Shown: piece by piece, positions 90 through 16,450 of the stretch | Layout of the letters: each line of letters begins with the position of its first letter | How positions within the stretch are numbered: the first letter of the stretch is position 1 | Source of the DNA: Dehalococcoidia bacterium | GTDB lineage: Bacteria > Chloroflexota > Dehalococcoidia > DSTF01 > JACRBR01 | Direction of reading: 5' to 3' | Assembly (NCBI GenBank): GCA_021731085.1 | Contig: JAKFYB010000032.1 | Location: 1-32,894, forward strand | DNA: 32,894 bases | Notes under the pieces: model-generated | Told to the model about the DNA's origin: nothing | What the model saw: the letters and a program-made list of their open reading frames with translations, nothing else | Databases searched by the model: none | Position numbers and translations under genes: made by a program

Positions 90-1274
90 TCACCCAACCC
101 GGTACTCCTCAATCCGATCCCAATCGACCTCAACACCCAACCCCGGCGCATCCGGCAGCGACACCCACCCATCCTCCATCACAATCGGCGACGCCAGCAT
201 GAAGTCCCGTCGCTCCGGCGTCCAGTTCGGCGGGTCGTACGCGTACTCGACGAATGGCGCGGTTCCGAACCCCGAGCTCGCGCACGCAGCGACCACCTGC
301 AGGTTCGCCATAAGCACCAATCCGTCGCCCCACGTGTGCGGCGTGTACATCACGCCAGCGTCCGCCGCCTTCCGCGCGATCTCGACTCCGCGGCGCACGC
401 CCGTCGTCCACGCCACGTCGGGCTGCAGGACATCGAACGAACCGTGCGCGAGATACTCGTCGAACTCCGCAAGCTCGCGATTGCCCTCGCCACCGGCGAT
501 CTTCACCGTCGACCACTTCTTCAGGTACGCGAGGTCGCGATAGTCGTGCCGGTCAAGCGGCTCCTCCAGCCAGTACACGCCCAACCTTGAAAGCTGATCT
601 GCAACATCGAGCGCCGTCTTCACGTCCCACGCCGGCGAGATATCCCAAGGCATCCGCCATCCCTGGTTTGCATCGACCATGATCTCCATCGACGAACCAA
701 CAGCCTCCCGCACCGCCCGCACGACAGCGATGTCTTCAGCAGGATCCTCCGCATGAAACCGCACTTTGATCGCCGGGAACCCTGCATCCCGCAGAACCAC
801 CGCTGAAGCAGCGCGCTCCGCAGCAGAAACCCGCTCTCCCGTCGACGCGTATACCCGCACCCGCCCAGCGGCAAACGCCCCATCGCCATGTAAGGGCGCC
901 GCTTGCTGCGCCCTCGTCGAATCGGCTTGATGTTCGTGCTCGACGACCAGGCGCCACAACGGCAGCCCGCGAATCTTCGCCGCGAGATCCCAGATCGCCA
1001 CCTCTACCGGCCACATCCGCCCGTAGTGAAACGACAGATTCTCGCAAACCCGCGCATGCCGATCGAACGCAAACACATCCTCCCCGATAAACAGTCCGCC
1101 GCAGTCCGCGAGCCCAGGCATCGCGTCGCCAGAACCAACGCCCTCGAACCCACCAGCCCGCACCCGCACGATGTGCGACGTAAACGACGTCCGCGGCACC
1201 GGATCCCACGACGCACGAAACGCCGGCTCCAGCGGAATCCGATACGCCGTAACCCCGATCGATTCGATCTTCAC
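90..1274 (-). CDS. Enolase-superfamily enzyme, mandelate racemase/muconate lactonizing type
   Basis: Predicted 394-residue Mg-dependent enzyme that abstracts a proton alpha to a carboxylate; the substrate cannot be told. Visible active-site set: K170-x-R172 (KxK-like), metal ligands D201 (VDANQGW), E237/E238 (WLEEPL) and E263 (GGEGNRE), then the Asp-His dyad D286 (QPD) and H313 (TPHTWGD), which is the mandelate racemase subgroup pattern. The start is the GTG at 1274. It overlaps the stop of the upstream acetyltransferase by 4 nt and has GGAG about 10 nt upstream; the longer ATG start at 1325 would overlap the upstream gene by 55 nt. Odd feature: residues about 111-137, between LPLWRLV and RVRVYASTGE, form an insertion relative to the usual family loop, partly encoded by a dispersed palindromic repeat. 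A dehydratase, racemase or epimerase are all possible. Confidence 0.88.
   Translation of the reverse strand: MKIESIGVTAYRIPLEPAFRASWDPVPRTSFTSHIVRVRAGGFEGVGSGDAMPGLADCGGLFIGEDVFAFDRHARVCENLSFHYGRMWPVEVAIWDLAAKIRGLPLWRLVVEHEHQADSTRAQQAAPLHGDGAFAAGRVRVYASTGERVSAAERAASAVVLRDAGFPAIKVRFHAEDPAEDIAVVRAVREAVGSSMEIMVDANQGWRMPWDISPAWDVKTALDVADQLSRLGVYWLEEPLDRHDYRDLAYLKKWSTVKIAGGEGNRELAEFDEYLAHGSFDVLQPDVAWTTGVRRGVEIARKAADAGVMYTPHTWGDGLVLMANLQVVAACASSGFGTAPFVEYAYDPPNWTPERRDFMLASPIVMEDGWVSLPDAPGLGVEVDWDRIEEYRVG
889..917 (-). repeat. Palindromic repeat family B copy inside the enolase-superfamily gene
   Basis: On the plus strand this reads GTAAGGGCGCCGCTTGCTGC followed by GCCCTCGT. It matches the intergenic copies at 13038, 16330 (reverse) and 27298, whose core is GTAGGGGCGCTGCTTGCC then GCGCCC. 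The arms GGGCGC and GCGCCC form the hairpin. The copy is read in frame as part of a loop insertion of the enzyme (roughly STRAQQAAPLHG). Confidence 0.75.
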
Positions 1275-1756
1275 GAGCGAGCGAGCTCCGCCAACGCATC
1301 GCCCGTTAGCCGGTATACCGTCCACTCATCCATCGCCACCGCACCCAACGACCGATAGAACGCGATCGAAGGCTCGTTCCAGTCGAGCACGCTCCACTCC
1401 AGCCGCCCGCACCCACGTTCGACCGCCAGCCGCGCGAGATGCGACAGCAACGCCTTCCCGTGCCCGCCGCCCCGATGCTCCGGCTGCACGAACAGGTCTT
1501 CGAGATAGATCCCCGGCCGACCCAAAAAAGTCGAATAGTTGTGAAAGAACAGCGCAAACCCGACGACGGCACCGTCGTCCGACTCATGGTTGGCTTCGGC
1601 CAGCACCACCTCCGCATACGGCCGCACCCCGAACAGATGCTCCCGCAGCACTCCCTCATCGAGCACAACCTGATCCGCCAGCCGCTCATATTCAGCCAGC
1701 CCGCGGATCAACTCGGCGATAACGGGAATGTCGTCAGGCGTAGCGGCGCGTATCAC
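1271..1756 (-). CDS. GNAT N-acetyltransferase, spermidine/spermine acetyltransferase (SSAT)-like
   Basis: A 161-residue single-domain GNAT enzyme that would transfer acetyl from acetyl-CoA to a primary amine, in the cytoplasm. The N-terminus IRAATPDDIPVIAELIRGLA is the first strand and helix of the fold. The segment ending GRPGIYLEDLFVQPEHR (residues about 80-95) closely follows SSAT, and R95-G-G-G-H-G100 is the pyrophosphate-binding loop. N127-E-P with Y134 (NEPSIAFYRSLGA) is the usual end of the CoA site and catalytic Tyr. The length is normal. It is the first gene of a minus-strand operon: its TGA overlaps the GTG of the enolase-superfamily gene, implying translational coupling. A diamine or other small-amine substrate is inferred from family resemblance only. 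Confidence 0.85.
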   Translation of the reverse strand: MIRAATPDDIPVIAELIRGLAEYERLADQVVLDEGVLREHLFGVRPYAEVVLAEANHESDDGAVVGFALFFHNYSTFLGRPGIYLEDLFVQPEHRGGGHGKALLSHLARLAVERGCGRLEWSVLDWNEPSIAFYRSLGAVAMDEWTVYRLTGDALAELARS

Positions 1757-11772: not shown

Positions 11773-12417
11773 CTACTTGTTCCGCTCTTCCATGATCTTC
11801 GCCTGCAATGCCAGGAATCCATCCATCAACGCCTCCGGCCGCGGCGGACACCCCGGTACATACACGTCGACCGGAATGATCTTGTCTACGCCCTGCAGCA
11901 CACGGTCGTACCGCGTGTACGGGCCGCCGTTCGTCGCGCAGGCGCCCATCGAAATCACCCACTTGGGATTCGGCATCTGCTCGTACAGCAGCTTTACGGC
12001 CGGCGCCATCTTCTTCGTCACCGTCCCAGACACGATCATCACGTCCGACTGCCTCGGCGATGGCCACGGCACAATGCCGAAGCGGTCGAGGTCGTGTCGG
12101 GACATGAACGTCGCGATCATCTCGATCGCGCAGCACGCTAGCCCGAACGTCATCGGCCACAGCGAGGACTTCCGCGAGATCGCCAAAATCGAGTCCACGG
12201 GAACCTGCATGATGCCCGGCAGCACCTGCCGGTATAGCGCCGTCCCCGGCTCGTACGGCACCGGCGTCAAGGTGAGCGCCTCGCGGTCGACGCTGGTCTG
12301 CTCCCGCTGCGGCACAACAATCGGTGCGCCTTCTACTTCTTTATCAGGCAGTGTTGGCGCTGCCGGAGCTGCCGGTGCGGCTGGCTCCGCGGCGCCAGGT
12401 GCTACTCTCGGTTCCAC
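11773..12417 (-). CDS. nuoB: NADH-quinone oxidoreductase (complex I) subunit B
   Basis: A 214-residue PSST-type subunit holding cluster N2, the last Fe-S cluster before quinone. Ligands C95 and C96 ([10 protein letters not shown]), C160 ([14 protein letters not shown]) and C190 ([14 protein letters not shown]) are all present. About 45 extra N-terminal residues, starting [20 protein letters not shown], precede the normal beginning of the domain. The start is a GTG at 12417, inside the end of nuoA (16-nt overlap), with GGGAG 7 nt upstream. A later start inside the Ala/Pro stretch cannot be excluded. Confidence 0.96.
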
Positions 12418-12779
12418 TGCAGCACTCCCTTCTTCCAGGCGTAGGCCAGTCCCGCGCCCAGAACGCCGATGAACACGATCATCTCCCAGAAGGCCGTCTT
12501 GCTCGCGTCAACAAGCGTCACCGCCCACGGAAAGAGGAACACGGCTTCGACGTCAAAGATAATGAAGAGGATGGCGAAAATGTAGTACCGGAAGCTGAAT
12601 TGCGCCCGCGTACTGCCAATCGGCGTCATGCCGCACTCGTACGACGTGCGCTTGTTCTCTTCTTTGGAGAATGGGGCCAGCAGCCGCGCCGCGATCAAAG
12701 CGGTTGCGATGAGACCAAACCCGACGATCGTCGCCAGGAATACAGCGAGATAGTTGCCGAGCAGCGCGTCAAATGGCAC
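12402..12779 (-). CDS. nuoA: NADH-quinone oxidoreductase (complex I) subunit A
   Basis: A 125-residue subunit with three membrane helices, first gene of the operon. Signature: [45 protein letters not shown], containing the Cys and acidic residues near the quinone cavity. The start is a GTG at 12779 with GGGAG about 9 nt upstream. It lies about 80 nt downstream of the candidate promoter at 12865-12893. Normal length. Confidence 0.97.
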
Positions 12780-13037: not shown

Positions 13038-13063
13038 GTAGGGGCGCTGCTTGCCGCGCCCTG
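13038..13063. repeat. Palindromic repeat family B, intergenic copy
   Basis: GTAGGGGCGCTGCTTGCCGC followed by GCCCTG; arms GGGCGC and GCGCCC with an imperfect centre. It matches copies at 889-917 (inside a gene), 16330-16353 (reverse) and 27298-27322. Confidence 0.75.
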
Positions 13064-13215: not shown

Positions 13216-13279
13216 GGACAGGATCGTAGAGGCGGCCCTATGTGGCCGCTCATAGCGCTGTCCAGACACCGCCGCCTCT
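13216..13279 (+). promoter_or_regulatory. Structured leader with two mutually exclusive folds upstream of the binding-protein gene
   Basis: Fold 1: outer stem GGACAG (13216-13221) with CTGTCC (13258-13263), enclosing hairpin GCGGCC (13232-13237) with GGCCGC (13244-13249). Fold 2: 9-bp perfect stem AGAGGCGGC (13228-13236) with GCCGCCTCT (13271-13279), enclosing CTATG (13238-13242) with CATAG (13251-13255). The two folds share bases and exclude each other. Fold 2 ends 5 nt before the Shine-Dalgarno GGAG (13285-13288). It does not match the cobalamin riboswitch consensus that I know. A regulatory role is inferred. Confidence 0.45.
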
Positions 13280-13295
13280 CATTCGGAGTAACGTT

Positions 13296-14321
13296 ATGCA
13301 AATGCGAGCGCCCCGGAACCACGGCGCCCTCTCGATCCTTCGTATCGGCGTCGTGGCCACAGCGGCCTTCATCCTCGCCTTCACCGTCGCCTGCTCCGGC
13401 GACGACAACGGCGGCAGCAACGGCGATGCCAACACGCCCGCCTTCACCGACGACCCCACGCCCATCGAGGGCGTCTCCACCATCGCCCAGTTCCCCGTCG
13501 AGATCCCCCGCAGCGATGGCAAGACGCTCACCCTCAACGCTGTCCCCACGCGCATCGTCTCCATGTCGCCCGGCGCGACCGAGATCATCTACGCGATCGG
13601 CGCCGAGTCCGTCCTCATCGCCGTCGATACCGAGTCCGACTACCCGACGGAGGTCGCGACGCTCTCCGCACGCATCCCACCAGGGCCAGACGCCGCGGCC
13701 CAGATCGCCGCGCTCAATCCCGACCTCGTCATCATCAACCAGGATAGGGGCGGCCTCGTCGCCGCGCTCGACCAGCGCAACCTCCCCGTCTACTACCAGG
13801 ACGCCACCACCGCGCTCACCACGGTTGAGCAGGTTCTCGGCCAGATCGCACTCATCGGCAAGGCCACCGGCAAGACCGACGAAGCGAGCGCGCTTGTCGC
13901 CAGCCTCGGCGCCCGGGTGCAGACTGTCACGGCCGCCGTCCAGGGCGTGAACTCCACCACCAGCCCGCGCGTCTTCCACGAACTCAGCGCCGCCCTCCGC
14001 ACCGCCTCAGACGGCAGCCTCCCCGGCGACCTCTACCGCATCCTTCACGCGCAGAACATCGCCGGAGACGGTGGCGGCGCGCCCTACCCGCAGATGACCG
14101 AGCAGGCCGTCGTCGCCTCGCTGCCCGACATCATCATCATCGCCCACCCCGACGCCACCGCCGCATCCATCGCCGCCCGCCCCGGCTGGAACACAATCCC
14201 CGCAGTCACAGACAACGCCATCACCGCCGTCGACCCGGCCTCCGCCATCCGCCCCGGCCCCCGCATCGTCGACGCCCTCGAAGCCGTAGCCAAAGCCGTC
14301 TACCCCAACCGCTTCCAGTAG
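13296..14321 (+). CDS. Periplasmic-binding lipoprotein of the BtuF/FecB (helical-backbone metal receptor) family
   Basis: A 341-residue exported solute-binding protein. The start is ATG 13296, with GGAG 7 nt upstream. The hydrophobic signal ILRIGVVATAAFILAFTVAC ends in a lipobox-like TVAC; the Cys is followed by an acidic/Gly/Asn linker (SGDDNGGSNGD), as in lipid-anchored receptors. The fold is recognised by LNAVPTRIVSMSPGATEIIYAIGAESVLIAVDTESDYP, then AAQIAALNPDLVIINQDR and the second lobe IAHPDATAASIAARPGWNTIPAVTDNAI. The family binds vitamin B12, haem or iron-siderophores. cobO lies 375 nt downstream, which favours a corrinoid ligand, but no permease or ATPase gene is adjacent. Signal peptide residues give no ligand information. 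Confidence 0.85.
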   Translation: MQMRAPRNHGALSILRIGVVATAAFILAFTVACSGDDNGGSNGDANTPAFTDDPTPIEGVSTIAQFPVEIPRSDGKTLTLNAVPTRIVSMSPGATEIIYAIGAESVLIAVDTESDYPTEVATLSARIPPGPDAAAQIAALNPDLVIINQDRGGLVAALDQRNLPVYYQDATTALTTVEQVLGQIALIGKATGKTDEASALVASLGARVQTVTAAVQGVNSTTSPRVFHELSAALRTASDGSLPGDLYRILHAQNIAGDGGGAPYPQMTEQAVVASLPDIIIIAHPDATAASIAARPGWNTIPAVTDNAITAVDPASAIRPGPRIVDALEAVAKAVYPNRFQ

Positions 14322-15260: not shown

Positions 15261-15284
15261 GTAGCGCGGGCCTTCAGCCCGCGC
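15261..15284. repeat. Palindromic repeat family A (GTAGCGCGGGC type)
   Basis: GTAGCGCGGGCCTTCAGCCC then GCGC: 8-bp perfect stem GCGCGGGC/GCCCGCGC around a CTTCA loop. Located 25 nt after cobO, where it could also act as a 3' hairpin. Further copies at 16403-16422 (reverse) and 26244-26270. Confidence 0.75.
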
Positions 15285-16280: not shown

Positions 16281-16329
16281 CCTGCGAGTGCCTTCGCTGT
16301 CGCATGTTGGACCGGGTTCCGCACGACGA

Positions 16330-16353
16330 GGGCGCGGCAAGCAGCGCCCCTAC
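16330..16353 (-). repeat. Palindromic repeat family B, reverse copy
   Basis: The reverse complement reads GTAGGGGCGCTGCTTGCCGC then GCCC, followed by TCGTCG. The flank CTCGTCG matches the copy inside the enolase-superfamily gene, so the repeat unit extends beyond the hairpin. Confidence 0.75.
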
Positions 16354-16402
16354 ACCCACGCGATGTGGCGCTGTCGCAGGAGGCGGTTTCACAACACGAC
16401 GA

Positions 16403-16422
16403 CGCGGGCTGAAAGCCCGCGC
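16403..16422 (-). repeat. Palindromic repeat family A, short reverse copy
   Basis: CGCGGGCTGAAAGCCCGCGC: stem GCGGGCT/AGCCCGC with a GAA centre, matching the family A core on the opposite strand. It ends 28 nt before the Eis-like start codon. Confidence 0.7.
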
Positions 16423-16450
16423 TCCGGCCATCGGCTAAACTGCGCGAACT

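Follow-up and report, generated by a model that had tools for sequence, protein, structure and literature searches.

The window analyzed here, a stretch of 32,894 nucleotides from a Dehalococcoidia bacterium, carries an enolase-superfamily gene of the mandelate-racemase/muconate-lactonizing type (PF13378) that harbors a copy of a dispersed palindrome, read here as a repetitive extragenic palindrome (REP; Table 1). The open reading frame that begins at the GTG at 1325 comprises 411 amino acids; since homologues begin with MKI, the GTG at 1274 (394 amino acids) is more likely to be the true start. The gene departs from the codon usage typical of the genome (mean log-odds of 0.11 versus 0.30 to 0.34), so that its expression and activity are predicted only, and its best homologues fall outside the genome's own family. 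Given these two features, the gene may have been acquired first and hit by the repeat afterwards. Identity to one and the same set of homologues is about 60% for both of its halves, so that the gene is no chimera.

Table 1. Positions of the genes, the insertion, and the repeat copies discussed in the text (plain numbers refer to the window).
Feature	Position	Strand	Remarks
Enolase-superfamily gene (MR_MLE_C)	90-1325	-	PF13378, E 2.2e-55
Net insertion VEHEHQADSTRAQQAAPLHGDG, 66 nt/22 codons	879-944	-	Residues 128-149 of 411; not present in homologues; edges defined to within a few codons
REP copy GTAAGGGCGCCGCTTGCTGCGCCCTC in the enolase-superfamily gene	890-915	+	Tag reads GTAA (mutated from GTAG); shared flank reaches 919 (CGTCG)
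REP copy	13038-13063	+	Between divergent nuoA (12402-12779, -) and Peripla_BP_2 gene (13242-14321, +)
REP copy	16328-16353	-	Between rhomboid gene and GNAT/SCP2 gene
RAYT P0002	C16:19947-20483 (= L013:1215-1751, G000)		PF01797; NF047646 below its cut-off
REP copy	C16:19806-19837		About 110 nt before P0002
REP copy	C16:20232-20257		In frame inside P0002, residues ~96-104
REP copy	C16:20599-20624		About 115 nt after P0002
Radical SAM gene L140	L140:12-2288	-	53-residue insert, residues ~254-308; REP and second repeat
NUDIX-methyltransferase gene	L166		REP in interdomain linker; also present in same-genus genome G001
Molybdopterin oxidoreductase gene	L181		REP in linker; G001 REP elsewhere in that linker
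Terminase-like gene	L144		REP in variable loop; genus g3 gene (L243) has its own, different REP there

The extra linker segment of the enolase-superfamily protein

When the protein was aligned with 104 homologues (Chloroflexota, Bacillota, Actinomycetota, Armatimonadota, and others), it was the only sequence in which 22 additional residues separate PLWRLV from RVRVYASTGE. These residues were found in none of the about 100 homologues that cover the site, where the linker is of near-constant length, and the nearest solved relatives carry a short linker only. At the DNA level, nine of the closest homologues lack exactly 66 nt. An earlier note on this DNA had placed a loop-lengthening insertion between LPLWRLV and RVYASTGE from residue 111 onward, a position that holds with the start at 1274, and its expectation that distant phyla would lack the residues was borne out. 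Protein identity to the best homologues is about 60%, and no empty site at high DNA identity was found in a close relative. Inspection of the junction alignment by eye showed no target-site duplication of the kind that classical MITEs have along with terminal inverted repeats; at a homology of about 60%, this alignment does not resolve the insertion edges.

The palindrome TGTAAGGGCGCCGCTTGCTGCGCCCTCGTCG at 889-919 shows 90% pairing with 16324-16354 of the window, and its core differs by one mismatch in 26 from the consensus GTAG-GGGCGCYGCTTGCYGCGCCC-TC, which has three matches in the window and none in shuffles. It codes for about 10 of the 22 inserted residues. Together with the shared flank, the recognizable REP accounts for about 31 of the 66 inserted nucleotides, or about half; for the other half, about 35 nt, no clear counterpart was found. 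Between the copy at C21:27006 and the copy in the enolase-superfamily gene, similarity continues past the REP on the side of the tag, but this is suggestive only. That all 66 nt might be a composite unit of the REP with flanking TGCGACAGCGCC motifs was unsupported (P of 0.40 and 0.14), and this 12-nt motif, which flanks many copies, was not significant at the insertion.

As the earlier note had stated, the catalytic and metal residues are intact: K187, R189, D218, E254, E280, and H330 are invariant in an alignment of 36 sequences. An AlphaFold2 model of the protein has a mean pLDDT of 90, and residues 131-150 fall to 74 and 56. In this model the inserted stretch is coil, the first inserted residues extending the adjoining helix, so that the insertion is placed as a low-confidence loop between the capping domain and the barrel. 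The loop is predicted to be disordered. An inserted hairpin could also have been recruited for a role in RNA stability or translation pausing or for a new loop function. The 31-mer hairpin does fold better than shuffles (z about -2.4), and REPs elsewhere have been proposed to act as RNA elements (PMC3733652); however, the larger segment of 87 nt shows no folding advantage over shuffles (z of 0.37), the loop is predicted to lack order, and the GTAG tag has already decayed to GTAA, which makes such a role improbable.

Copies of the palindrome in the genome and its relatives

A search of the 3.58-Mb genome with GTAGGGGCGCNGCNNGCNGCGCCCTC at up to three mismatches listed 39 and 29 places (68 in total), compared to 0 and 1 for the reversed control, and these correspond to about 67 distinct copies. 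The unit is thus repeated far beyond chance, and its presence as a dispersed palindrome in frame within the gene, the central claim of the earlier note, was upheld. Two subfamilies can be told apart, namely, B1 (GTAG-GGGCGCYGCTTGCYGCGCCC-TC) and B2 (GTAGGGGCGCAGCCTGCTGCGCCCGC). Nearly all copies are tagged GTAG, the exception considered here being the GTAA of the enolase gene copy. Direct repeats of TGCGACAGCGCC lie about 12 nt before the GTAG in 18 of 46 B1 copies and, on the same strand, about 22 nt after the unit in 17 of 46; examples of this composite are the window copy at 16328-16353 and those of L128, L153, and L188. No such composite was found around B2 copies, and the palindrome had no match in Rfam. 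In 12 copies (for example, in L148, L160, and L168) the upstream gene uses the TAG of the tag as its stop codon, which suggests that these REPs trimmed gene ends or abut them. Two more dispersed palindromes, GCGGGCTTTCAGCCCGC and CGGAGCTTTAGCTCCG, occur in the window (15263-15283, 16403-16423; 12969, 26314, 28070).

The majority of the 67 copies examined are intergenic, and about six are clearly in frame within genes as judged by coding score, Pfam, or homologues. The view that the other copies lie only between genes holds for the two further window copies but not for the genome as a whole. At least six genes have an in-frame copy, including the enolase-superfamily gene and the RAYT gene described below. 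Apart from these two, the clearest case is the radical SAM gene L140, whose insert is missing from seven family members of 68 to 75% identity and in which a second dispersed repeat, GTCATTCTGAGCAAAGCGAAGAATC (peptide RHSEQSEES), lies in frame beside the REP. The coding score also flagged the L180 kinase gene; its REP match is weak and probably due to chance, and the gene was discarded.

Ordinary indels could also have enlarged the enolase loop, in which case the palindrome would be a chance product or the result of conversion of sequence already present. This would be in line with the unmatched half of the insert and with the terminase-like L144 loop, which varies in length in all relatives. 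However, a single mismatch in 26 to a genome-wide repeat, with none expected by chance from shuffles, and the near-constant length of the enolase site in about 100 homologues render this explanation very unlikely. A further reading concerns the family as a whole: the terminase-like loop has different REP families in two genera, and a nuoG-type linker has REPs at differing places in two species. On these grounds it is conceivable, though doubtful, that in this Chloroflexota family the same protein linkers receive in-frame REPs again and again in independent events, the spread of REPs thus acting as a recurring source of new protein loops.

The abundance of B1-type units differs among relatives. 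The present genome has 42. The same-genus genome G001 has 11, mostly B2-like, and two species of genus g5 have 49 (G006) and 72 (G007), compared to none in the third g5 species; none were found in G002 to G005 or in genera g2 to g4. Such patchy copy numbers within one family fit a mobile element. In G007, the same REP also forms tandem arrays with regular spacings of 54 and 32 nt (G007:C212:2259-2607 and G007:C225:331-515).

A RAYT transposase associated with the repeat

One REP-associated transposase (RAYT), P0002, was detected in the genome. The genome profile search with PF01797 missed it, probably because the inserted REP splits the profile match, and hmmscan on the ORF finds it. Judged by its sequence, P0002 is a subclass 2.4-like TnpAREP, with the motifs NHMH (HUH) at 78, WQ at 139, and YIEDNP at 160, which differ little from those published, and with a REP between the HUH and Tyr motifs. 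It resembles the REPtrons of TnpAREP subclass 2.4/RAYT group 4 (Quentin et al. 2018, PMC6006769) in its HUH, WQ, and YIxDNP motifs, flanking REPs, and in-frame internal REP, whereas the typical motifs there are NH[IFV]H and YIxNNP, and the lineage of P0002 is not detailed in that study. RAYT homologues across the class (L190 to L218) have other GTAG palindromes in frame right after the HUH motif, which belong to differing families and encode peptides such as VGAGLKPAPT, RGGSRTAPT, and RGTVHRAPT. In the RAYTs of G001 and G003, the internal copy is the same as the flanking copies. In the homologue L214 (G007:C153), this loop contains a long tandem repeat of VGATGP. A REP in frame within a subclass 2.4 transposase gene has already been described (PMC6006769), and the copy inside P0002 was not retained as a novelty.

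GTAG REPs, Rickettsia palindromic elements, and the origin of the insertion

Among known elements, a GTAG-tagged REP is the best reading of this repeat, and not a Rickettsia palindromic element (RPE). It is short, has many mainly extragenic copies with GTAG at one foot, and the RAYT is flanked by the same REP. It shares with the GTAG REPs of Di Nocera et al. 2013 (PMC3733652) a dispersed palindrome of 20 to 40 nt, some in-frame intragenic units, the use of the TAG as a stop codon, and the RAYT association. Differences exist as well: the intragenic inserts described there, found in several species, are 20 to 30 residues long and mostly encoded by dimers, whereas here a single unit lies in a total insertion of 66 nt; the lineage is a different one, within the Chloroflexota; and the 12-nt motif occurs at fixed distances around many copies. 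That work distinguishes 24 REP families; the resemblance described here is one of general features.

The earlier note had likened the palindrome to RPEs, and this likeness stands for the behavior, in that a palindrome in frame within genes adds a surface peptide while the gene is kept, but not for membership. RPEs belong to the Rickettsiales; RPE-1 is about 100 to 150 nt long and, to our knowledge, has neither a GTAG tag nor a RAYT, whereas the unit of about 26 to 31 nt described here is GTAG tagged and RAYT associated and has its relatives in the Chloroflexota. Di Nocera et al. have classed RPE-4 and RPE-6 as CGTC-type REPs (PMC3733652). An RPE-like system in its own right, that is, a coding-adapted selfish element that prefers genes, would agree with the in-frame insertion, the preserved fold, and the number of genes with in-frame copies. 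However, most copies are extragenic in a genome that, as is usual in bacteria, is mostly coding, so that genes are avoided rather than preferred, and the unit is short, tagged, and tied to a RAYT. Such a system is hence highly improbable.

It is very probable that a GTAG-type REP was inserted in frame into the enolase-superfamily gene and that its family was most likely spread by the genome's own RAYT. The REP, together with some neighboring sequence, would have entered where a linker joins the capping domain to the TIM barrel. As 66 nt is a multiple of three, the strand is read in frame without stops, and this linker lies at the surface, the gene would have stayed open and the enzyme probably active. 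P0002, as a TnpAREP/RAYT a HUH single-strand nuclease, is the likely spreader of the about 67 copies because units of this REP lie on both sides of its gene and within it. Gene-breaking insertions would have been lost, and those that fell between genes, at the ends of genes, or into loops that tolerate them would remain.

No report of intragenic REPs in this lineage was found in open PMC papers, and to this extent the suggestion that the phenomenon was undescribed stands; in bacteria at large it is known (PMC3733652). With intragenic REPs and REPs in RAYT genes already published (PMC3733652, PMC6006769), the present case is a clear new example of a known phenomenon. The case is a clean one: about 100 homologues show the site empty, a structure of the protein was predicted, and a transposase can be identified in the same genome. 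It adds an uncultured Chloroflexota lineage to those with intragenic REPs, and the frequency with which mobile hairpins are incorporated into proteins thereby becomes a practical question.
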